This document shows, one piece after another, positions 11,839-57,936 of a stretch of DNA of 64,000 nucleotides. This DNA comes from Acidobacteriaceae bacterium (lineage in GTDB: Bacteria > Acidobacteriota > Terriglobia > Terriglobales > Acidobacteriaceae). The stretch is taken from positions 100,105 through 164,104 of the forward strand of contig PLDC01000011.1 in the NCBI GenBank assembly GCA_003134995.1, read 5' to 3'. Position numbers and translations under genes: made by a program. The notes under the pieces are model-generated. The model was not told the origin of the DNA, made no database searches, and saw only the letters and a program-made list of their open reading frames with translations. Position 1 is the first letter of the stretch. Each line of letters starts with the position of its first letter.

Positions 11839-12968
11839 GCGAGTGGAATCGAAAAACTTTGGCTAAGAATTCAAATTTCTATCCCGTGATTCTTGCTGGC
11901 GGGCGGGGCACGCGCTTCTGGCCGTTGAGCCGGAAAAAACGCGCGAAGCAGTTGCTGGCGCTCGATGGCAAGCAGACGATGATCCAGCAGACCGTCGGAC
12001 GATTGCTACCGCTGGCTTCGGCGAAATCTTTTTGGATCATCACCAACGATGATCTGCGTCCTGCGATTTTGAAGCAGCTTCCTAAGTTGCCGAAGGCGCA
12101 GGTGCTGGCCGAACCGCTGGGACGCAATACTGCGCCGGCAATCGGTCTTGCCGCGTTTCTTCTGTGGCGCGAACAGCCCGACGCGGTGATTGGAATGTTT
12201 CCTTCCGACCATGTGATCGCCGATGAGAAAACTTATCGCTCGACGATTGAACGCGGAGCGGAGATCGCGGCTGGGGGTGAGAATATTGTAGTGCTCGGCA
12301 TCCGGCCGAATCGAGCGGAGACCGGGTACGGTTACATTGAGGCGGGCAGCGGATTCGGCGGAGACGCTTTGCGCGTGCGCCGATTTACCGAGAAGCCAGA
12401 CGCTGAGACGGCTGCGGCCTTTGTGGCTGCGGGGAATTATTTCTGGAACAGCGGGATGTTTTTGTGGAGCGCCCGCACGCTGTCCAATGCGTTGCGCGAG
12501 CATCTTCCAAAAACCGCACCCATTCTGGAAGAGATTGCCGCGAGCTTCGGCACACGCAAGTTTGCTGGCACTTTTCGCAGGCTGTATCCAAAGTGTGAAA
12601 ATATCAGCGTCGACTATGCGGTGCTGGAACCGCGTTCGGCGAAGGGCGAACACGCTGGAAATATTTTCTGCCTGCCCGCGGACTTCGGCTGGAACGATCT
12701 GGGATCATGGACCGCGCTGCACGAACATCACACGGCGAAGAGCAGTCCGGCTGAGGGCAATCTTATTAATGGTGAGGGAGTATTCGTGCTGAACGCGCAT
12801 GGCAATTATGTGCATGCACCGGGCAAATTTGTTGCCGTTGTAGGAGTGAGCGATCTGGTAGTGGTTGAAACGCCGGACGCTTTGCTGATCACGACTCGGC
12901 AGCACGCGCAGGACGTTGGTAAAGTGGTGAAGCATTTGGATCAGAAGAAGCTGCATAGGCTGACATAA
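11835..12968 (+). CDS. manC: Mannose-1-phosphate guanylyltransferase
   Basis: The enzyme makes GDP-mannose from GTP and mannose-1-phosphate. The nucleotide-binding signature LAGGRGTRFWPLSRKKRAKQ lies at residues 20-39, followed by FPSDHVI near residue 120 and FTEKPD near residue 185. The 377 residues cover the transferase and a short left-handed beta-helix tail, without the cupin isomerase domain of two-function enzymes. That fits with the separate manA gene immediately upstream. The GTG start overlaps the manA stop. Confidence 0.92.
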   Translation: MSEWNRKTLAKNSNFYPVILAGGRGTRFWPLSRKKRAKQLLALDGKQTMIQQTVGRLLPLASAKSFWIITNDDLRPAILKQLPKLPKAQVLAEPLGRNTAPAIGLAAFLLWREQPDAVIGMFPSDHVIADEKTYRSTIERGAEIAAGGENIVVLGIRPNRAETGYGYIEAGSGFGGDALRVRRFTEKPDAETAAAFVAAGNYFWNSGMFLWSARTLSNALREHLPKTAPILEEIAASFGTRKFAGTFRRLYPKCENISVDYAVLEPRSAKGEHAGNIFCLPADFGWNDLGSWTALHEHHTAKSSPAEGNLINGEGVFVLNAHGNYVHAPGKFVAVVGVSDLVVVETPDALLITTRQHAQDVGKVVKHLDQKKLHRLT

Positions 12969-13055
12969 GTCGTTGGTCGTTGGTCGATAGTCGTCGGCCG
13001 GCCCGCCACAGTGAGCTTTTCGGCGAACGACTAACGACCAGCGGCTAACGACGAC
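12969..13055. repeat. Inverted repeat built on GTCGTTGGTC (family B, no gene inside)
   Basis: The left arm (12969-13000) has GTCGTTGGTCGTTGGTCG and the right arm (13021-13055) is its approximate complement, with CGAACGACTAACGACC and CTAACGACGAC. The loop is about 20 bases. The same arms flank the four-helix-bundle gene at 47066-47100 and 47525-47562. Confidence 0.8.
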
Positions 13056-13061
13056 TTTCCA

Positions 13062-40128: not shown

Positions 40129-42900
40129 ATGTCCACTAGCGCGCAGTCGTGGAAGGGCTTGTCTTCGGGCGCCAAGGTGTTTGTCGCCTTGGTGATTGCC
40201 GCTGGTATGGCGTCGCTGTTACGGGGCGCGATCCACCAGGAGAGCAAGAACATCGCGGAGTTCATCTGCTACCTGGGCATCGCAATTTTGGCGTCGCGGC
40301 TGCGCGTGACTCTGCCCGGCATCACGGGCACGCTCTCGGTGAACTTCCTGTTTATCCTGGTGGGCGTTGCGGAGCTGAGCTACTCAGAAGCGATTACGCT
40401 GGGCGCAATCTCAATGCTGGCGCAGTGTTGGTCCGCGAAACGCCCCGGAGCGATTCAGTTGACGTTCAACGTTTGCGCGGGCTCGCTTTCGACCGCCGCG
40501 GCTTACCTGGTGTATCACAGCTTTCTTGTGAACGAGCTGATCGTAAACCGCCCTCTGATTCTTTGCCTGGCAGCCTCGGTTTATTTCATTGTTAACGCGG
40601 GTTCCATCGCGATTGTGATTTCGTTCAGCGAAGGCAAACCGCTTCGCCGCATTCTGGTCGATTGTTATTTCTGGTCTTTCCCTTATTACCTGCTCGGAGC
40701 CGGCATTGCAGGCGCGATTGCCTGGTTCAACCACGCATTCAACTGGGAAACTTCACTGTTGTTCGTTCCCGCGATTTACCTCATCTACCGTTCCTATCGT
40801 TTGTATCTCGGGAAACTTGAGGACGAGAAGCGGCATGTCGAAGAGATGGCTGATCTGCATCTGAGAACCATCGAGGCTTTGGCGCTGGCCATTGAGGCAA
40901 AAGACCAGACGACGCACGATCACTTGCAGCGAGTTCGCATTTATGCCATCGAGGTAGCGAAAGAATTGGGCATGAAGGGAAGTGACCTCGAGGCCCTGCA
41001 TGCGGCCGCGCTGTTGCACGACATCGGCAAGCTCGCAGTGCCCGAACACATCATCGCGAAACCTGGCCGGCTCACGCCGGAAGAGTTCGAGAAGATGAAG
41101 ATTCACACCGTGGTGGGAGCGGAAATTCTGGAACGAGTCCGCTTCCCGTATCCGGTGGTGCCGATCGTGCGCGCGCACCATGAAAAATGGGATGGATCGG
41201 GTTATCCCTACGGATTGAAAGGCGCGGAGATTCCCATCGGGGCGCGCATTCTCTCCGCCGTCGACTACCTCGATGCGTTGGCTTCAGACCGGCAATACCG
41301 CCGCGCGATGCCGCTCGATGAAGTAATGAAGAACTTAGTGGGAGAGTCGGGCAAAGCATTTGATCCGAAGGTGGTGGAGGTTCTGCAGAAGCGTTACCGC
41401 AGTCTCGAAAACCTGGCCGTGGCGCAGTCGGTGGCAACGCCCGCGCTGCCGGCAGAACTGAAAGTAACACGCGGTCCGTCGCCAGATGCGGGATTTGAGA
41501 ATTCGAGAGTCTCGGATGCGCCCGGGCGCGAAGCGACTTTTCTGTCGTCGATTGCGGCGGCGCGTCAGGAAGCTCAGTCACTGTTCGAGTTGAGTCAGGA
41601 TCTCGGAGCGTCGTTGAGCCTGGGTGAAACGCTTTCTGTCTTCTCCGTGAAACTGCGACCGATGGTTCCCTATGACGCCATCGCGATTTACATTCTGCGC
41701 GACGGCATTTTGTTCCCCGAATATGTGAATGGCGACAACTATCGCCTGTTCTCGTCGTTGCGAATTCCCTTTGGTGACGGGCTTTCGGGATGGGTGGCGC
41801 AGAATAAGAAGCCCATTGTGAACGGAAACCCTTCGGTCGAGCCGGGCTATCTGAACGATCCCGATAAATTCAGCACGTTGCGATCGGCGCTGGCCTTGCC
41901 TCTCGAAGGTGTTTCCGGTGTGATCGGAGTTCTCGCGCTCTACCGCGCCGAGAAAGATGCATTCACATCCGATCATTTGCGCATTCTTCTGGCGGTGAGC
42001 GGCAAGATGGCCCTCGCCATTGAAAACGCTCTGAAGTTTCAGCAGGCGGAAAACTCTGCCACCACCGATTACCTTACCGGCCTGCCGAATGCCCGGTCGC
42101 TGTTTCTGCAGCTCGACCGCGAACTGGCCCGCTGCAAGCGCGATAATCTTTCGCTCACCCTGATGGTCTGCGACATGAACGGATTCAAGAAGATCAACGA
42201 CCGCTTCGGGCACCTGGAAGGGAATCGCGTCTTGCGACTGTTTGCCCAGGCGCTGAAAGATAGCTGCCGCGAGTACGACTACGTTGCGCGCATGGGCGGA
42301 GATGAATTTGTGGTGATTGCTGCCGGCCTGGCTGCGGGCGATGCGGCCAAGAGGGTGGAGCAGTTGCGTCCTCTGGCGCGGCAGGCGGGGTTCGATGTTT
42401 GCGGAGAAGAAATTCTTTCTCTGAGCGTAGGCATCGCCGCGTCTCCCGAGGACGGCAGCGACGCCGAGCAGCTTCTTGCCCAAGCCGACCGCCGTATGTA
42501 CATCGAGAAAGAAAAACAGCCCTCGCGCAAAGATCAGCGGCTGCATGCGCGCATGAACTGCCGGCTCACCATCGAACTGCATCCTCAGGCGGGCGGCGGA
42601 CCGATCTTCGGTAATCTGATCGACATCAGCCTGGGCGGTTGCTATGTCGAGACCAGCGTAATTCTGACTCCGGGATCTGACATCAAGCTGGTCTTTTCTC
42701 TGGATAACACCGGGCCGAATGCCGCGGGCGCTCTGAGCGCGGAAGGAACGGTTGCCAGAATTCATCCTGGATCGGGCGTGGCAGTGCAGTTCAAGGAGAT
42801 GAGCCGCGACTCGCGCGAAAAGATGCACCGCATTCTAGAATTCGTTCAGAGTACAACCACGGCCTACAACGAGCGCTACATGCAGAATATCCGGCGCTAA
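40129..42900 (+). CDS. Membrane HD-GYP/GAF/GGDEF/PilZ cyclic-di-GMP protein
   Basis: The product has 923 residues. Residues 1-225 form about seven or eight membrane helices. HD-GYP follows, with HD at 297-298 in LLHDIGKLA and GYP at 358-360 in GSGYP. GAF lies at about 485-645. GGDEF is intact (ARMGGDEFVVIA, residues 723-727), with an RxxD inhibitory site five residues upstream (714-717). PilZ lies at the C-terminus, with RxxxR near 804 and DISLGG near 832. The protein can in principle make, break and bind cyclic-di-GMP. It is divergent from the NfnAB genes across a CRP-type site. Confidence 0.92.
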   Translation: MSTSAQSWKGLSSGAKVFVALVIAAGMASLLRGAIHQESKNIAEFICYLGIAILASRLRVTLPGITGTLSVNFLFILVGVAELSYSEAITLGAISMLAQCWSAKRPGAIQLTFNVCAGSLSTAAAYLVYHSFLVNELIVNRPLILCLAASVYFIVNAGSIAIVISFSEGKPLRRILVDCYFWSFPYYLLGAGIAGAIAWFNHAFNWETSLLFVPAIYLIYRSYRLYLGKLEDEKRHVEEMADLHLRTIEALALAIEAKDQTTHDHLQRVRIYAIEVAKELGMKGSDLEALHAAALLHDIGKLAVPEHIIAKPGRLTPEEFEKMKIHTVVGAEILERVRFPYPVVPIVRAHHEKWDGSGYPYGLKGAEIPIGARILSAVDYLDALASDRQYRRAMPLDEVMKNLVGESGKAFDPKVVEVLQKRYRSLENLAVAQSVATPALPAELKVTRGPSPDAGFENSRVSDAPGREATFLSSIAAARQEAQSLFELSQDLGASLSLGETLSVFSVKLRPMVPYDAIAIYILRDGILFPEYVNGDNYRLFSSLRIPFGDGLSGWVAQNKKPIVNGNPSVEPGYLNDPDKFSTLRSALALPLEGVSGVIGVLALYRAEKDAFTSDHLRILLAVSGKMALAIENALKFQQAENSATTDYLTGLPNARSLFLQLDRELARCKRDNLSLTLMVCDMNGFKKINDRFGHLEGNRVLRLFAQALKDSCREYDYVARMGGDEFVVIAAGLAAGDAAKRVEQLRPLARQAGFDVCGEEILSLSVGIAASPEDGSDAEQLLAQADRRMYIEKEKQPSRKDQRLHARMNCRLTIELHPQAGGGPIFGNLIDISLGGCYVETSVILTPGSDIKLVFSLDNTGPNAAGALSAEGTVARIHPGSGVAVQFKEMSRDSREKMHRILEFVQSTTTAYNERYMQNIRR

Positions 42901-42908
42901 AGAACAGT

Positions 42909-43033
42909 AGTCAGGGGTCAGTAATCAGGGGCCAGTGGTATTAGTGGTATCAGTGGTCAGCGTTTGTCAGCGTTCAATGACCAGCCGAAGCCAGTTGTTT
43001 TGCTGACCCCTGACCCCTAACCCCTGACCCCTG
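42909..43033. repeat. Inverted repeat of AGGGGTCAG / CTGACCCCT units (family D)
   Basis: The left side (42909-42938) has TCAGGGGTCAG and ATCAGGGGCCAG; the right side (43003-43033) has CTGACCCCTGACCCCTAACC and CCTGACCCC. A central part holds GTGGTATTAGTGGTATCAG. The arms could pair into a long hairpin between the two genes. Confidence 0.8.
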
Positions 43034-43071
43034 CTCTTGAAGCCTGCTGCCGCCGCCCTTACACTTAGAGA

Positions 43072-45739: not shown

Positions 45740-45950
45740 GTTGTTCAATGCACTTTCCCCGAGAATAAACGAAAGTGATCGGATGCCGAAACTTACCGGA
45801 TCAGCCGTTTGGAGCGCTTTCGCTGGGTCAATCTCCGGATAAATCCTGCAATCGCTGCAGCTTGGCTCGCCCCAGCCAGTGCAGGAACGCCGCTGCCCCT
45901 GTGGTAACCTAGTAGTTGGTGCGTTTCCGCGCCTGGAGCATCCAACTACT

Positions 45951-47063
45951 GTGCATTCTCTGCGAAATTTCGTGCGTTTCCTGGTGGCCGTGCAGCTTTT
46001 GCCCGCGCTTGAAAGTGGCGAAGAAACCCTGGTCGGCGGGCAAGCCGTGCTTGAAGGCGTGATGATGCGTTCGCCGCACGCCTGGGCAATCGCCTGCCGC
46101 AAACCTTCGGGCGAAGTCGTCACCATGAGCGAACCGCTCGCGCGTCCTTCGGAAAAACATAAATGGATGGCATGGCCTATCGTCCGCGGAGTGATGACAC
46201 TCGGCTACGCGATGTCGCTAGGCTACCGCGCGCTACGCTTCTCGGCCAACGTCGCAATCGAAGACGTAATGCAAAGTGATAAAGACGCCGATGTGAGCAA
46301 GGGCCATGTGGAGACGGCCGCCTCGGTCGTCCCGCCGAAGCTTGCCCTGAGCTTGCCGAACGGGCGAAGCGAGGTGGAAGCTACAAACTCCTCCAAATCG
46401 CAATCCCGCGAAAAAGCCGCCACCATCAGCGGATGGCTGGCCGCAGTCAACGTAATCATCTCGCTGGCCTTCTTCATCTTCATGTACAAATACCTGCCGC
46501 TGCTCGCGGCCACCGAACTCAAGAAGGCGAATCCCGCGCTGGGCGGCCAGATCGCCTTCAACTTGGTTGACGGCGCGGTACGCCTGATCCTGTTCCTGCT
46601 GTTCATCTGGGGAGTCTCGCTATTCCCCGACATTCGCCGCGTGTACCAGTATCACGGCGCCGAGCACAAAACCGTATTCGCCTTCGAGAACGGAGACCCG
46701 CTCGAAACCGCAGCGGTGCAAAAGTATTCCACGTTCCATCCGCGCTGCGGCACCAGCTTCTTGATGACCGTGATGCTGATCTCGATCGGCTTCTACATGC
46801 TGGTTCCATTCACCACATTCTGGGCGCGTTTCGCATCGCGCATTGCGCTGCTGCCGCTGATCGCCGGCGTGTCCTACGAAATCATCCGCTTCGCCGCCAA
46901 GCATCGCGGCTCGCTCTTTGCCCTGATGACAGCTCCCGGCCTGTGGCTGCAGCGCATCACCACGCAGCCTCCGTCGGACGAAATGGCTCAATGTGCCATC
47001 ACCGCCCTCGATCACGCCATGGTTCTGGAAAAAGAGCAGGGCGGCGAGCTGGTGATTGCATAG
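45951..47063 (+). CDS. DUF1385 family membrane protein
   Basis: The product has 370 residues with about four membrane helices. It opens with LESGEETLVGGQAVLEGVMM, the family's N-terminal signature, and continues with YQYHGAEHKTVFAFENGDPL and FHPRCGTSFLMTVM. The function is not established; conserved histidines and the single cysteine may bind a ligand. The GTG 45951 start is a choice among several (the frame is open from 45879). Residues 130-142 (46340-46377) are repeat-like and lie in a variable cytosolic loop. Confidence 0.87.
   Translation: MHSLRNFVRFLVAVQLLPALESGEETLVGGQAVLEGVMMRSPHAWAIACRKPSGEVVTMSEPLARPSEKHKWMAWPIVRGVMTLGYAMSLGYRALRFSANVAIEDVMQSDKDADVSKGHVETAASVVPPKLALSLPNGRSEVEATNSSKSQSREKAATISGWLAAVNVIISLAFFIFMYKYLPLLAATELKKANPALGGQIAFNLVDGAVRLILFLLFIWGVSLFPDIRRVYQYHGAEHKTVFAFENGDPLETAAVQKYSTFHPRCGTSFLMTVMLISIGFYMLVPFTTFWARFASRIALLPLIAGVSYEIIRFAAKHRGSLFALMTAPGLWLQRITTQPPSDEMAQCAITALDHAMVLEKEQGGELVIA
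46340..46377 (+). repeat. Repeat-like segment within the DUF1385 gene (family F)
   Basis: The sequence GCCCTGAGCTTGCCGAACGG resembles the intergenic element at 14502-14526 in reverse complement. It codes for KLALSLPNGRSEV between membrane segments, in frame. Confidence 0.4.
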
Positions 47064-47065
47064 GA

Positions 47066-47100
47066 GCCGTCATTGGTCGTTGGCCCTCTTCGTTGGTCAT
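47066..47100. repeat. Left arm of family B repeat flanking the four-helix-bundle gene
   Basis: The stretch holds CATTGGTCGTTGGCCCTCTT and CGTTGGTCAT. It is the approximate reverse complement of the arm at 47525-47562 and is similar to 12969-13000. Confidence 0.75.
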
Positions 47101-47154
47101 CCGTCACATACATCTTGGCAGGCGATCCCATAGCGTACATCCCGGAGGTGTCAC

Positions 47155-47484
47155 ATGGCTGCATCATCTTTTCGGGATTTGAGAGTCTGGCAAGAAGCGA
47201 TGAAACTGACAGCGGAGATCTACAAGAGCACATTGGTCTTCCCGAAGCATGAGCTGTACGGATTAACTCAGCAGATTCGCCGTGCAGCGGTATCTGTGCC
47301 CAGCAATATCGCAGAAGGCAAGGGTCACCGCTCCGACAAAGAATTCGTCCCTTTCTTGTTGCGCGCGCGGGGATCACTTTTGGAACTTCAAGCCCAATTG
47401 TTGATCTCTGAGGAATTACAATATGTCCGTCAGGAAGAAGCGCGACGCCTGCTGACGTTAGCCGAGGGAGTGGCCGTGCCCTGA
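47155..47484 (+). CDS. Four-helix-bundle (S23/IVP-type) protein, C-terminal frameshift
   Basis: The product has 109 residues as read. FRDLRVWQEAMKLTAEIYK at the start, YGLTQQIRRAAVSVPSNIAE near residue 42 and EEARRLLTLAEGV near the end are typical of the four-helix-bundle family related to rRNA intervening-sequence proteins and to the diversity-generating-element accessory protein Avd. The final part is lost by a one-base deletion near 47472-47477: with one extra C the frame would give GVARALSGLINSMSEKAA and stop at 47522, which is the usual family ending. GGAGG precedes the ATG. The gene is enclosed by inverted family B arms. Confidence 0.87.
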   Translation: MAASSFRDLRVWQEAMKLTAEIYKSTLVFPKHELYGLTQQIRRAAVSVPSNIAEGKGHRSDKEFVPFLLRARGSLLELQAQLLISEELQYVRQEEARRLLTLAEGVAVP

Positions 47485-47524
47485 GCGGACTGATCAACTC
47501 GATGAGCGAGAAAGCTGCATGAAG

Positions 47525-47562
47525 CGAAGGGCCAACGACGAACGACGAACGGCCAACGACGA
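47525..47562. repeat. Right arm of family B repeat flanking the four-helix-bundle gene
   Basis: GCGAAGGGCCAACGACGAAC and AACGGCCAACGACGA pair with the left arm (47066-47100) in reverse complement, with one bulged base. The arm ends 5 bases before the prfA start. Confidence 0.75.
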
Positions 47563-47567
47563 TTTCC

Positions 47568-48647
47568 ATGTTTGAGAGACTAGACCAAACCGAAGCCCGC
47601 TACGAAGAGCTCACCAACGCTCTCGCTTCGCCGGATATCGTCAACGATTCGGCGCGATACCAGAAGACCGCCAAGGCCCACGCTGAAATCGCGCCCATCG
47701 TCGAGAAGTATCGCGAGTACAAAGATCTCACCCGCGGCATCGCCGAGAGCAAGGCCATGCTCGCCGACGAAAAAGATCCTGACATGCGCGCCTACGCTCA
47801 GGAAGAACTCGCGAAGCTGGAGCCGCGCGTCTCTACCGTCGAAGAAGAATTGAAAGTCCTGCTGCTGCCGAAAGATCCGAATGACGAGAAAAATATCATC
47901 CTCGAAATTCGCGCCGGCACCGGCGGAGACGAAGCCACTCTGTTCGCCGCCGAAATCTTCCGCATGTACACGCGTTACGCCGAAAACCAGCGCTGGAAGG
48001 TCGAAATCCTCTCTTCCTCGGATTCGTCGGCGGGAGGCCTGAAAGAAGTCATCGCCATCATCGAAGGGAAACGCGTCTTTTCCCAGCTCAAGTATGAAAG
48101 CGGTACGCATCGCGTGCAGCGCGTTCCCGCCACCGAGCAGCAGGGGCGCGTCCACACCTCGGCAGTCACCGTCGCAGTGCTGCCCGAGGCCGAAGATGTC
48201 GACATCAAGATCGAAGCCAAAGATCTGCGCATTGATACGTTCTGCTCTTCCGGTCCGGGCGGGCAGTCGGTGAATACGACGTACTCTGCCGTGCGTATCA
48301 CGCATATTCCGACGAACACGGTCGTCAGTTGTCAGGACGAAAAGTCGCAGATCAAGAACCGTGAGAAAGGCATGCGTGTGCTGCGCTCGCGGCTCTACGA
48401 GATCGAAATGGAGAAGCAGCAATCGGCTCTGGCTAAAGAGCGCAAAGCCATGGTCGGCTCCGGCGACCGGAGCGAGAAAATCCGAACCTACAACTTCCCG
48501 CAAAACCGCCTCACCGACCACCGCATCGGATTTACCATCCATCAGCTCGAACAAGTGATGGACGGCAAGCTCCAACCGCTCATTGAGGCGCTTACCACGC
48601 ATTATCAGGCAGAAAAATTAAAGCAGGAAGCTACAACGGCAGTATAA
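47568..48647 (+). CDS. prfA: Peptide chain release factor 1
   Basis: The product has 359 residues, the usual length. It reads UAA and UAG stop codons on the ribosome and triggers release. The GGQ loop is in [20 protein letters not shown] near residue 230, and the codon-reading PxT motif lies near residue 188 ([15 protein letters not shown]). The N-terminal domain has [15 protein letters not shown]. It sits directly downstream of the family B arm, so the arm forms part of its leader. Confidence 0.95.
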
Positions 48648-50355: not shown

Positions 50356-51246
50356 GTGCCACTGCAACTCAAAGACGCTCTAGCCGGAGCGGTCGCGCGC
50401 CTGACTGCCGCCAACGTTCCTTCGCCGCGAATGAACGCGGAGTTACTGTTGACCTTCACCCTCGATTGCGACCGCGCCTATTTTTTTGCCCACCCAGAGC
50501 GCGTACTCACTCAGGATGAAATCGTTCGCTACGACCATGCCCTCGCCGAGCGTTCCCGCGGAGTGCCCGCGCAGTACATTACGGGCCATCAGGAATTTTG
50601 GGGCATGGATCTTATCGTCACGCCAGCGGTGCTGATTCCACGTCCGGAGACAGAACATGTGATCGAAGCGGTGCTGGAACTGCGAGAGTCGGCGTCCGGC
50701 TTCCGGCGTTCGGCTCCCGGAAGCCAGAAGCCAGAAGCCGGGAGCCGAATTCTAGATGTAGGCACAGGTTCCGGCTGCATTGCGCTGGCTCTCGCGAAAG
50801 AATTGAAAGACGCGGAAATCTACGCCACGGACATTTCCGCCGCCGCGCTCGAAATCGCCCGCATCAACGCCGTCCGCAATCAACTCGAAAGCCGCATTCA
50901 ATTTCGCGAAGGTGACTTGCTTGCGGGCTTTGAAAACAACTCCTTCGATTTCATCGTCTCCAATCCGCCGTACGTGGGCGAATCGGAAGCAGACGATGTT
51001 CAACTCGAAGTCCGCAAATTCGAGCCGCGCAACGCTGTCTTTGCCGGGCCCAAAGGAGTTGAAGTGATCGAGCGCATGATTCTGCAAGCCCATGCCGCAC
51101 TCAAAGCTGGCGGCTGGCTGGTCATGGAAATCAGCGGAACAATTGCTGAGGAAGTAAGAAGTTTATTGCGCGATTGGAACGAAGTTTCGATCAGGCCCGA
51201 TCTTCAATCGATTCCGCGTGTAGTGCAAGCAAGAAAGTCCCTATAA
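50356..51246 (+). CDS. prmC: Peptide chain release factor N5-glutamine methyltransferase
   Basis: The enzyme methylates the GGQ glutamine of release factors, including the nearby prfA product. The product has 296 residues. N-terminal helices (to about 75) are followed by LIPRPETEHVIEA, the SAM motif ILDVGTGSGCIALAL near residue 132 and the catalytic NPPY in VSNPPYVGESEAD near residue 200. Residues 114-131 (SASGFRRSAPGSQKPEAG) are an extra segment encoded by an inverted repeat (50698-50746) between the two domains; orthologues have a short linker there. It starts with GTG after a GAGG overlap. Confidence 0.93.
   Translation: MPLQLKDALAGAVARLTAANVPSPRMNAELLLTFTLDCDRAYFFAHPERVLTQDEIVRYDHALAERSRGVPAQYITGHQEFWGMDLIVTPAVLIPRPETEHVIEAVLELRESASGFRRSAPGSQKPEAGSRILDVGTGSGCIALALAKELKDAEIYATDISAAALEIARINAVRNQLESRIQFREGDLLAGFENNSFDFIVSNPPYVGESEADDVQLEVRKFEPRNAVFAGPKGVEVIERMILQAHAALKAGGWLVMEISGTIAEEVRSLLRDWNEVSIRPDLQSIPRVVQARKSL
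50698..50746 (+). repeat. Family A palindromic repeat inserted in frame within prmC
   Basis: Two nested perfect inverted repeats are present: GGCTTCCGG/CCGGAAGCC (50698-50706, 50717-50725) and GGCTCCCGG/CCGGGAGCC (50712-50720, 50738-50746). The units match intergenic copies at 78-132 and 889-925. Confidence 0.8.
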
Positions 51247-51254
51247 CCAGGACT

Positions 51255-51345
51255 GGAGCCCCGGACGCCCTCGTCCGGGGAGCAGCACCCAAACTCTACC
51301 CACCGAAATTATCGCCGCCGGGCGGACGAGGGCGTCCGCCACTCC
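51255..51345. repeat. GGAGCCCCGGACG...CGTCCG repeat (family C) between convergent genes
   Basis: The left palindrome (51255-51280) has CCCCGGACG around CCCT and CGTCCGGGG; the right (51320-51345) has GGCGGACG around AGGG and CGTCCGCC. It occupies the gap between convergent prmC and purF and could stop transcription in both directions. Confidence 0.8.
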
Positions 51346-51401
51346 ACGAGCAGAAACGTTTCCCTTGGGTTTGATCGCAGAACTTTCGTGCCAACGGAGC
51401 C

Positions 51402-52906: not shown

Positions 52907-55303
52907 TTAATCAGCGCTCACCAACTCCGTATCAGTCCGCAAACTAGATTCCAGCGCAGACTCGTAAGCCTGATGCAAATCCGCGACCGCCGCCGAAACA
53001 ACCACATGCCCATCCAAAGAAATTTCCAGCCGCTCCGGAATCGTCTCTCCCAAAACATCCGCGCCGATTCCGTGCTCTTCCGCTATCTGTTGGATTCGCG
53101 AAACGTTAGCCGGGTCGCAAGAGAGCATGATGCGGCTCGCATCTTCGCCAAACAGCGCGAATTCCGCAGGAAGTCCATTCAACGCAAGATTCACGCGCGC
53201 ACCTACGCCCTTCGCGAATGCCTTCTCCGGCAGCGCGACCGCCAATCCGCCATCTGAGCAGTCATGCACCGAATCCACCAAGCCCTGCTGAATCAATTCG
53301 ATGACTGCTTTCTGCAGCGCGGCTTCCTTTTCTAAATCGAGTTCCGGAGGATATCCCCACAGCGCTCCCAGAATTTCTTTGGCGTATTCCGAGGATCCGA
53401 ACTCACTTTCTACATCGGTAATATCGGCTGCTTCGCCGGCGCGCAATAGCACGATCGTGCGTCCGGGCGCGGCGAAATACATCTTCACAGCTTTGCTGAC
53501 ATCGTCGAGCATTCCCACCACGCCCAGCACCGGCGTGGGATAAATTCCTTCGCCCAGCGTCTCGTTGTAAAAACTGACGTTGCCGCCGGTGATGGGAATC
53601 TCAAGTTCCTCGCACGCTTTCGTGATGCCATCGATGGTCTGCGAGAACTGCCACATGATGTGCGGCTTCTCGGGATTGCCGAAGTTGAGGCAATTCGTTG
53701 CGCCCACAGGAGTCGCTCCCGAACAAGCGACTTTTCGCGCGGCTTCTGCAACCGCATGCATCGCGCCCAACCGCGAATCGAGATAGCACCAGCGTCCATT
53801 GCCATCGAGCGCCATCGCAAGGCCGCGCTGCGGCGAGTCAGCATTCGGATTCTTGATGCGAATCACGCCCGCATCGCCCGCGCCCGGCGCTTCGACAGTG
53901 TTGGTCTGCACCATGTGATCGTATTGCTGCCAAACCCAGCGCTTGCCGCAGATGTTGGGGCTGGCGAGAAGTTGCTTGAGACTTTCGGTGAAGTCGTTGT
54001 CGCTGCTGAACCTAACGTGCTCTGGCATTTCGCGCGGTACTGGCGGTTCCCAGCGCGCCAGCGGACGTTTGTACACAGGCGCGTCGTCGGTGAGCGCCTG
54101 ATTCGAAATCTCGGCTACGACTTCGCCGTGGTGAAGCACGCGCAATTTATTGCCGGCGGTGACTGTGCCAACTTCGACTGCATCGAGTCCCCACTTTTCA
54201 AAGACGCGGAAGACTTCGTGCTCGCGGCCTTTCTCGGCGACCAGCAGCATGCGCTCCTGCGACTCGCTGAGCATGATTTCGTATGCGCTCATGCCAGTTT
54301 CGCGCTGCGGAACGCGATCGAGTTCGATCTCGACGCCAACGCCGCCGCGCGCGCCCATCTCGCAGGTTGAGCACGTGAGCCCAGCCGCGCCCATATCTTG
54401 GATGCCGACGATTGCTCCCGTCTGCATTGCTTCGAGGCAAGCTTCGAGCAGCAACTTCTCAAGAAACGGATCGCCGACCTGCACGTTCGGCCGCTTCGCC
54501 TCCGAAGCTTCACTGAATTCTTCGCTGGCCATGGTTGCGCCGTGAATGCCGTCGCGCCCGGTCTTTGCGCCGACGTAAATTACCGGATTGCCTTCGCCGG
54601 CGGCGCGCGCGTAAAAGATTTCGTCTTTGCGAACCAGTCCCATAGCGAATGCATTCACTAACGGGTTGCCGGAGTAACACGGCTCGAATTTGGTCTCGCC
54701 GCCCAGGTTGGGCACGCCGAAACAATTGCCGTAGGACGCGACGCCGCCGACCACGCCTTCGAGGATGGAGTGGTTGCGATGAATGTCGGCCTGTGTAGCC
54801 GCGGACGCATTCGTCCGCACGTCCCCATTTCCCTCTTGCCCCCGGACGAATGCGTCCGGGGCTCCATGTTTCGTAGTAGCGCTTGTAATCGGGCCGAACC
54901 TTAGCGAGTCCATCACTGCCACTGGCCTTGCGCCCATGGTGAAGATGTCGCGCAGAATTCCGCCAACGCCTGTCGTTGCTCCTTGAAACGGCTCGATGAA
55001 GCTTGGATGATTGTGCGACTCGATCTTGAAGGCGCAGGCCCAACCATCGCCGATGTCGATGATGCCGGCATTCTCTCCGGGACCTTGCAGCACGCGCTTG
55101 CTGCGCGTGGGCAGACGCTTCAGATGCACGCGCGAAGATTTATAGGAACAGTGCTCGCTCCACATCACGCTGAAGATGCCGAGTTCGGTGAGCGTAGGTT
55201 CGCGGTCGCCAAGAAGCTGTTTAATCTTTTCGTATTCGCCGGAAGTGAGGCCGTGCTGCCGGATGATCTCGGCAGAAAAGGCAGGGGTCATGGAGGTGGT
55301 CAT
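52907..55303 (-). CDS. purL: Phosphoribosylformylglycinamidine synthase subunit PurL
   Basis: The product has 798 residues (small-form PurL, acting with separate PurS and PurQ). ATP and substrate motifs are [19 protein letters not shown] near residue 49, [15 protein letters not shown] near residue 93 and [15 protein letters not shown] near residue 302. Residues about 147-168 ([20 protein letters not shown]) are encoded by a family C repeat (54800-54865) and interrupt a normally short segment between SLRFGPIT and [18 protein letters not shown]. The frame is kept. It is upstream of purF. Confidence 0.95.
54800..54865 (-). repeat. Family C repeat inserted in frame within purL
   Basis: The segment has GCGGACGCATTCGTCCGC (54801-54818) and CCCCGGACGAATGCGTCCGG (from 54840), the same pieces as 55761-55840, which lies outside genes only 900 bases away. 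The 66-base length is a multiple of three, so the frame is kept. Confidence 0.85.
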
Positions 55304-55760
55304 GGGGAAGTTCTATTGTAGCAAGTCGTTGGTCGTTCGCCGTTGGCCGTTGGCAAATACGCTCGAAGTCTCCGTTTTTCGCAAACGGCAGGTGACCGGC
55401 GGCCTGCAGACGAGTGTTTTCAACGACTTATCTAGTAGCTATTGCTCAATGGCAATTCAAATGCGCGAGTGAGGGCGCGACCCCCTTTGTTTTCATCGCG
55501 CGATTTGCAAGTTGTTGAAAACAGGTCCGGGCTGTGGATGGCAAGCCGATTTGCTCGGCCTGGCTCACATGCAGGATGCCTCTGGAACGCACAGAATTGG
55601 CTCCTGTGCGCTTCGGATTGCTTGGGTGGCGTCCAAGGTCGTCCGAGAATTTCGTGGGGCTTAAATCGCCTCTAATGCGAAATTCTTTGTAAGTCGTTGA
55701 AATAGTTTGTAACTTGTTGAACTTATCCAGAAGCTATTGAAAAGATTGAAGCACGCTCAT
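55304..55760. other. Repeat-rich, AT-leaning region between purL and selB
   Basis: A family B-like arm with GTCGTTGGTCGTTCGCCG lies at 55323-55352. A perfect 13-base inverted repeat, TTTCAACGACTTA (55418-55430) and TAAGTCGTTGAAA (55690-55702), encloses 259 bases. A 19-base direct repeat, ACTTATC(T/C)AG(T/A)AGCTATTG, occurs at 55426-55444 and 55721-55739 with two mismatches. I see no gene, tRNA-Sec or transposase. The second copy includes TTATCCAGA, one base from a DnaA box, but there is no other sign of an origin. Confidence 0.6.
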
Positions 55761-57848: not shown

Positions 57849-57936
57849 GAATTGAGTCATTGGGCGATTTTGCGATTGGGCGATTGAAAATCCGGGGCCA
57901 AACGCACAATGGCCCGATCACTCAATCGCTCAATTC
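57849..57936. repeat. Inverted repeat GAATTGAG...CTCAATTC between convergent genes
   Basis: The 8-base ends are perfect complements (57849-57856 and 57929-57936). Inside are TTGGGCGATTTTGCGATTGG and ATGGCCCGATCACTCAATCG, partly complementary. It lies between selB and the AhpD-like gene and may serve both as a transcription stop. Confidence 0.75.

Follow-up and report, generated by a model that had tools for sequence, protein, structure and literature searches.

The S23/IVP gene studied here is, at a probability that we put at roughly 0.8, one copy of a widespread mobile cassette of about 470 bp, in which an S23/IVP gene lies between inverted arrays of lineage-specific seven- or eight-nucleotide words. 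Most other S23 genes examined have the same architecture, with words specific to the lineage of the gene; whole cassettes are present in some alleles and absent from others, truncated and gene-less derivatives occur, and solo hairpins carry the same words. The window, by which we mean the whole 64,000-nucleotide stretch of DNA that was analysed, is C21:100105-164104 of the 5.62-Mb acidobacterial genome that we call G000.

The cassette in the window

A preliminary description of this DNA had noted an S23/IVP-type gene between arms that are approximate reverse complements, a second pair of arms without a gene, and a lone arm, and all three are present. The gene is an open reading frame of 109 amino acids (47155-47484, plus strand) that profile searches assign to PF05635 (E 1.7e-35) and TIGR02436; its sole PDB sequence match at E <= 1 is 2GSC, the structure of Xcc0516. 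The left arm (approximately 47069-47104, plus strand) consists of degenerate GTCGTTG-type heptads, and the right arm (47525-47562, minus strand) reads in reverse complement as GTC/GCC cores at 7-nt spacing, five of which were counted. Aligned as an inverted pair the arms score 15.0, against 7.0 in direct orientation and a mean of 8.5 (maximum 12.5) over 60 shuffles.

The closest relative of the encoded protein, from the genome G023, is 90% identical. The window gene is one base shorter than this relative near its C-terminal end and therefore ends early, at GVAVP*, so that the C-terminus is shortened. Among 104 codons compared, 35 differ, 25 of them synonymously and 10 nonsynonymously, and the gene has thus been maintained as a protein, under purifying selection.

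The cassette lies between an open reading frame at 45879-47063 and a gene at 47568-48647 (plus strand) which, going by its sequence, we take to be prfA, encoding peptide chain release factor 1. This gene is outside the element; being conserved, it serves to locate the orthologous site in other genomes. The sole Rfam match in the window at the gathering threshold is a tRNA, and there is no rRNA; an ordinary rRNA intervening sequence (IVS) is thereby ruled out for the window copy.

The gene-less GTCGTTG hairpin (12969-13055) is intergenic, and at the orthologous site other species have hairpins made of other words. The stretch 12968-13060 folds strongly (-55.8 kcal/mol, z = -8.25), while the overall fold of the 511-nt stretch that includes the gene is no better than that of shuffles (z = -1.23). 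The lone GTCGTTG arm is at 55324-55353 on the plus strand. Further solo hairpins carry the word CGGCTTC (50689-50748, in frame within the open reading frame 50356-51246, which from its protein sequence is presumably prmC-like), a CAGGGGT-like word of period 7 (42900-43038), and period-8 arms resembling ATTGAGTC (57851-57926), such as are found at second-subfamily S23 genes in relatives. Of the gene-less hairpins, those at 12969 and 50689 are best explained as non-autonomous derivatives of the window family and of a sister family, respectively. The window also contains, at 51254-51346 and 54794-54866, a further palindromic repeat family (TGGAGCC..CGGACGC..CGTCCG) with no 7/8 periodicity, and palindromes like these fill the prmC loop in other species.

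Inverted arms as a rule for S23 genes

A profile search with PF05635 gave three matches in G000 and was positive in 50 of 61 genomes (G000 and 60 relatives). From among the matches listed we assembled 132 acidobacterial S23 loci, three of which were dropped, leaving 129 with at least 100 bp on each side. At an alignment score cut-off of 14, which was chosen after the first score distribution was known, inverted arms were present in 112 of the 129 loci (17 fell below the cut-off), against 11 of 129 in direct orientation and 17 of 584 when upstream and downstream flanks were paired across different genomes. Arm-positive loci made up 90 of 102 in the window's genus and 22 of 27 elsewhere; the second, divergent subfamily was positive in 19 of 19.

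To look beyond the Acidobacteria we used a named set, obtained by scanning a genome collection with a fragment of Xcc0516 and keeping the best 80 of 571 confirmed relatives, and consequently biased toward Xcc0516-like genes. Seventy-nine of these loci could be scored (L221 was too short); inverted arms reached the cut-off in 58 and direct arms in 16 of these 79, with 21 below the cut-off for inverted arms. The named loci come from many phyla and include one from an ANME-1 archaeon.

As a general control we took 800 kb from G000 and 800 kb from a second genome, G018, and scored every ATG-initiated open reading frame between 270 and 1500 nt long, without removing spurious or overlapping frames. 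Only 10 of 1432 and 8 of 1518, respectively, reached the cut-off, so that the enrichment of arms beside this family that the preliminary description had proposed as a check is borne out in both S23 sets. Control frames with 7/8-periodic arms numbered five in G000 and two in G018. One of the five is itself an S23 gene, two are a single place read on both strands, which we take to be rpsM, and the other two we take to be rpsD and a chorismate mutase gene. The rpsD-reading gene has a solo hairpin on each side. At G000:C23:69600-71362, solo hairpins adjoin genes that read as the ribosomal protein genes rpsM and rpsD.

Chance inverted repeats are ruled out by the shuffle, direct-orientation, cross-locus and general open reading frame controls. 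Restriction of arms to S23 genes of the window type is likewise ruled out, as G000 has three S23 genes and each scores at least 14 with a word of its own; a scan for the window word alone finds arms at only one of the three. From outer arm end to outer arm end, the element has a median length of 471 bp (103 loci).

Arm words and their link to the protein

The arms are built of short tandem words. Over lags 3-10, 92 of the 112 arm-positive acidobacterial loci had a best internal period of 7 and 20 had one of 8, with L144 a weak case among the latter (0.46). Pooled over these loci, the match reached 0.64 for lag 7 and 0.60 for lag 14; every other lag between 3 and 16 gave 0.18-0.32. This periodicity is an independent result, because the arms were detected by complementarity alone. 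The 58 arm-positive named loci gave a best period of 7 in 49, 8 in seven and 9 in two, although one of the last (L271) is not truly periodic.

The words vary by S23 clade: GTCGTTG in the clade of the window gene, and AGCTNCT, AGTTCTC, CAGCTNT, AGTACCG and CGGACCT in others, with 8-mers such as ATTGAGTA. Across 87 period-7 loci, protein identity correlates with word similarity (Mantel rho 0.347; maximum of 999 permutations 0.132). The sequence of an S23 protein thus predicts the word of its arms, and the word is specific to the S23 lineage. By itself, the correlation could stem from common descent of the gene and its arms.

Five units per arm

S23 crystallises as a pentamer, according to the available text of PMC4990558, and for that reason we asked beforehand whether an arm holds about five units. 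Acidobacterial period-7 arms have a sharp length peak at 31-32 nt (57 of 174 arms), and period-8 arms peak at 36-38 nt (11 of 32). Among the named loci, the commonest length of a period-7 arm is 30 nt, and 53 of 98 such arms measure 30-34 nt; no length peak is seen in the 14 period-8 arms. Arm length is therefore about four periods plus a core, that is, five triplet cores and four spacers. Within a unit, the best three adjacent positions, a triplet picked for its conservation, are 0.91-0.96 conserved and the rest 0.65-0.83. The modal number of cores per arm was five in acidobacterial S23 arms (86 of 206), named arms (39 of 112) and solo hairpins (53 of 152). The length peak is the better measure, because the core count, which allows one mismatch and uses the best-conserved triplet, over-counts and gives values of 6-8; under a stricter count of whole units, 42 of 103 upstream arms and 51 of 103 downstream arms hold five. 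These numbers suggest that one unit may correspond to one subunit of the pentamer.

The window protein, modelled with AlphaFold (pLDDT 92), has four helices, in agreement with the four-helix bundle of the preliminary description. Foldseek matched the model to 2GSC and 2RLD, with chains A-E listed for each, and to the Avd protein in 4DWL and in the diversity-generating retroelement (DGR) ribonucleoprotein 8UB7 (probability 1.00, E 0.17-0.22). Five polar residues, Q34, R37, S41, N45 and E71 in domain numbering, are 98-100% conserved in 196 S23 proteins, the glutamate in all 196, and are candidates for a buried network, a binding site or an active site.

Solo hairpins and copy numbers

The word GTCGTTGGTCGTTGGYCGTTGGY has 112 matches in G000 at up to three mismatches, overlapping matches included, and its reversed control has none. 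Over all 61 genomes the reversed control gave zero matches in 59, one in G002 and 14 in G051; the G051 matches arise because the pattern read backwards is (TGGTTGC)n, the word of an S23 locus of that same genome (L052). A census of hairpins over 800 kb per genome found 122 in G000, 52 of them with 7/8-periodic arms, and 86 in G018, 24 of them with such arms, while a codon-shuffled G000 control gave 23 hairpins, one of them periodic. The periodic hairpins fall into 19 word families in G000 and 13 in G018, several with no cognate gene in the same genome. Most of the larger families match S23 arms better forward than reverse-complemented.

We compared copy numbers with and without a cognate S23 gene in 37 genomes of the window's genus. 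Median matches per genome were 61.5 with the gene (n=8) against 7 without (n=29) for GTCGTTG (p = 1.5e-4), 62.5 (n=4) against 10 (n=33) for AGTTCTC (p = 0.0024), and 38.5 (n=6) against 16 (n=31) for AGCTTCT (p = 0.027). Gene presence was taken from fetched loci, so an S23 gene that was not read may escape this comparison, and the AGTTCTC and AGCTTCT tests omit four genomes whose S23 arms were not read (G061-G064), including G063 with its 276 AGTTCTC matches. We set aside as evidence a post-hoc pooling of AGCT-like words (p 2.2e-4). Copy number follows the gene only in part: orphan hairpin families exist, G000 has 101 AGTTCTC matches, the most among the compared genomes that lack a known S23 gene of this kind, and G004 has a GTCGTTG gene and six matches.

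The GGGAATC repeats of Xanthomonas

The available text of PMC4692102 describes GGGAATC heptamers in Xanthomonas as forming 70 convergent inverted pairs in one genome and 75 in another, mostly intergenic, generally without association with mobile elements, and with 83% of the X. campestris (Xcc) repeats at the same place in Xac; it also gives a Nostoc heptamer repeat, GGGGA(T/C)T. The crystallised pentameric S23 protein of X. campestris is Xcc0516. Once arms were known at many loci, we predicted beforehand that GGGAATC arms would surround Xcc0516-like genes, and they do at five of five Xanthomonas loci. As these loci are orthologous and have identical upstream arms, they count as one case rather than five. 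Three loci from related genera (L198, L199 and L202) have words near-identical to GGGAATC.

Matches to GGGAATC number 374, 417, 463, 179 and 186 in the Xanthomonas genomes and 102, 249, 135 and 109 in four relatives, against one in the genome of L201; the reversed control over the genomes of L193-L202 gave none save five in one genome. The L201 arms have the word GTGATTS instead, which matches 74 times in the L201 genome and 3-11 times per Xanthomonas genome. Both words are plentiful in the genomes of L198 and L199. The published convergent pairs thus have the word of the Xanthomonas S23 arms, and for repeats reported in PMC4692102 without a mobile-element association we propose the S23 gene as owner.

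Filled and empty alleles on cyanobacterial plasmids

Searched against 72,556 plasmid records, the window S23 protein gave 26 matches, 24 of them cyanobacterial. Ten of the 13 plasmid loci that we read have clear 7-periodic inverted arms, including two pairs of near-identical copies; L433 and L435 have weaker or shorter arms and L436 has none. At L430 a direct repeat outscores the inverted arms. Flank searches, with one to four records fetched per site, revealed empty alleles at four sites, eight in total, and no S23 match was found in any of the eight.

At the first site, a filled allele on Trichormus plasmid C compares with empty alleles in Nostoc linckia NIES-25 (98.1% identical over the shared part) and N. 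carneum NIES-2107 (97.5%). The insert, of about 420 bp, consists of the arms and the S23 gene and lies between GTAATAAA and GTAATTAA, of which the empty allele has a single GTAATTAA; this amounts to an 8-bp target duplication with 7 of 8 positions matching. Two derivatives occur at the same site. Plasmid pC052_E of Nostoc C052 has a truncated copy that keeps a single arm and the N-terminal 40 residues of an S23 protein (72% identical). In Brasilonema the site holds a short gene-less hairpin with the same kind of word, scoring 12.5 and so under the cut-off of 14. The second site is filled in Calothrix brevissima (518 bp) and empty in two records (91-92%), the third is filled on pC052_D of Nostoc C052 and empty in three records, and the fourth, between annotated nrdB and nrdA genes, is filled in Nostoc edaphicum and empty in Calothrix NIES-4105 (86%). 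A target duplication at every site is not what we find: it is seen at one of the four, and sites 2-4 are ambiguous, with no clean duplication. The preliminary description had envisaged both filled and empty sites among relatives and deletion derivatives of the cassette; the former are clearest on these plasmids, with flanks 98% identical, and the latter are represented by the truncated copy and the gene-less hairpin.

At two of the S23 plasmid loci the gene has cas6 on one side and cas4 on the other, and at a third its neighbours are cas10 and a cmr3-family gene (L430, L431 and L435). Eighteen S23 genes within cas loci appear in the available text of PMC3936711, and such genes may be cassette insertions that were mistaken for CRISPR-associated genes. 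Phage carriage was also considered and was rejected, the Xcc0516 fragment giving no match in a phage collection.

Orthologous sites in the window's genus

Upstream of prfA, S23 with arms was present in seven of 20 readable loci (21 examined), and G012 has another by its coordinates. G006 has a decayed S23 copy that matches in two frames, and the remaining loci have arm remnants, AGTTCTC hairpins, other palindromes or nothing. Three genomes (G003, G013 and G016; L174, L179 and L166) have at this place GAGACGTA..TACGTCTC palindromes of another repeat family. Because the GTCGTTG gene sits mainly at this one conserved site in the genus, we regard the window copy as old and probably inherited vertically; among the 20 readable loci we saw no recent jump of this gene.

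At the site of the 12969 hairpin, 30 genomes including G000 divide into three with GTCGTTG, ten with AGTGGCC-like words, eight with GTTTC-type words and nine with another hairpin or none. At the prmC-like site of the 50689 hairpin, also in 30 genomes, six have the word CAGACCT and one has CGGCGTC, and the rest have non-heptad palindromes or short alleles. Words at all three sites were assigned by eye from the sequence. The differing words at orthologous sites indicate that the same places are used by different hairpin families, either because the place is a hot spot or because the word is rewritten where it stands. On the latter explanation the hairpins would be stationary, their words overwritten by gene conversion from other families, and the differences in word between species at each of the three sites are as it would predict; the same three sites, however, have hairpin-less alleles, and there are the empty plasmid sites as well, so we consider it improbable as the whole account, and it could act alongside insertion.

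Alternative explanations and a possible mechanism

It is about equally improbable that S23 is a nucleic-acid-binding regulator whose arms are autoregulatory and whose solo hairpins form a regulon, the words co-evolving with the protein and nothing moving. Purifying selection on S23 would be expected of a regulator, and solo hairpins do adjoin housekeeping genes, including those that read as rpsM and rpsD. The shared position of 83% of the Xcc GGGAATC repeats in Xac (PMC4692102, in its available text) is also in keeping with fixed operators. Operators would not, however, account for a whole cassette that one plasmid has and another lacks although their flanks are 98% identical, nor for hairpins within a coding frame, unrelated words at one orthologous site, or hairpin families that have no cognate gene. 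Least probable is that the tandem words are products of slippage or recombination moved by an ordinary transposase with S23 as passenger, a view that suits both the lack of a known transposase motif in S23 and the heptamer arms of solo hairpins without S23, but not an element too short (median 471 bp) to have room for a second gene, or a gene that is under purifying selection and whose sequence predicts the word.

In our preferred reading, that of a mobile cassette, the protein itself would recognise the element. Each subunit of the S23 pentamer ring would contact one of the five core triplets in an arm of its own cassette, with the arms presented as single-stranded DNA or RNA or as a folded hairpin, and binding would thereby mark both the cassette and gene-less hairpins for movement. 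Cutting and joining could fall to a host enzyme that S23 recruits, whether nuclease, transposase or reverse transcriptase, or alternatively to S23 itself through its near-invariant Q/R/S/N/E residues. No recognised transposase is present inside the cassette, and no catalytic domain was recognised in S23: three proteins scanned gave PF05635 alone in Pfam, and TIGR02436 and related models in NCBIfam. A DivGenRetAVD match reached 25.6 bits against a cut-off of 80 for one of these three (L106) and was not listed for the window protein.

More speculatively, at somewhat less than even odds, S23 rings may be a new kind of mobility protein, in which the pentamer reads five copies of a lineage-specific word and moves the hairpin, either as a transposase with a new fold or, after the manner of its structural relative Avd, by passing folded RNA or DNA to a reverse transcriptase of the host. 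The rRNA IVSs, the GGGAATC repeats and probably the cyanobacterial heptamer repeats would then be products of one pan-prokaryotic system.

Relation to known systems

The closest parallel in logic is the REP/REPIN-RAYT system as presented in the available text of PMC2817692 and PMC3116915, where there are likewise a gene between two inverted repeats, dispersed solo copies, hairpin doublets, co-evolution of repeat and gene, and a repeat abundance that tracks the gene, which here it does imperfectly and with orphan families. RAYT, however, is an IS200/IS605-like tyrosine transposase, to which the S23 four-helix bundle is unrelated, and a REP/RAYT arm holds a single REP, in contrast to the tandem 7- and 8-mers found here.

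The 23S rRNA IVS of Coxiella burnetii, as the available text of PMC4990558 describes it, is about 430 nt long and has an S23p open reading frame between terminal inverted repeats, with three (in some strains two) tandem heptamers and a degenerate one upstream; mobility of IVSs had been proposed by earlier authors cited there. The cassettes share with it the S23 gene within terminal inverted repeats and the tandem heptamers. Unlike the rRNA IVS, they lie outside rRNA genes where this was checked, the window copy included, and have lineage-specific words in both arms, dispersed solo hairpins, and filled and empty alleles.

Terminal inverted repeats recall MITEs and insertion sequences; as to target duplication, one of 8 bp was seen at one of the four plasmid sites and the other three sites are ambiguous. 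The likeness to DGR Avd (4DWL, 8UB7; PMC10053308, in its available text) is one of fold, by Foldseek at probability 1.00 with E above 0.1, but no reverse transcriptase fits inside the cassettes. The TAACTGA heptamers of Beggiatoaceae (PMC4679880, available text) are also intergenic, tandem and without a known owner, although they are direct repeats with a single inverted one in that genome, whereas the arms here are inverted.

Among the literature matches listed in a search that took in few subscription papers and no preprints, none connects heptamer arms with S23 genes. What appears to be new is the general architecture, together with the code, the match to the pentamer and the filled and empty alleles. 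Because no known mobility protein is involved, we rate the cassette as a new class of mobile element, with a REP/RAYT-like logic.

For a large protein family with solved structures but no known role, these results provide a context. They suggest an owner for a heptamer repeat that was published without one, could explain several orphan bacterial repeat families, and offer a likely reason for the presence of S23 genes in rRNA genes and cas loci. The more than 100 protein-word pairs (103) are also a natural data set of an evolving nucleic-acid recognition code.
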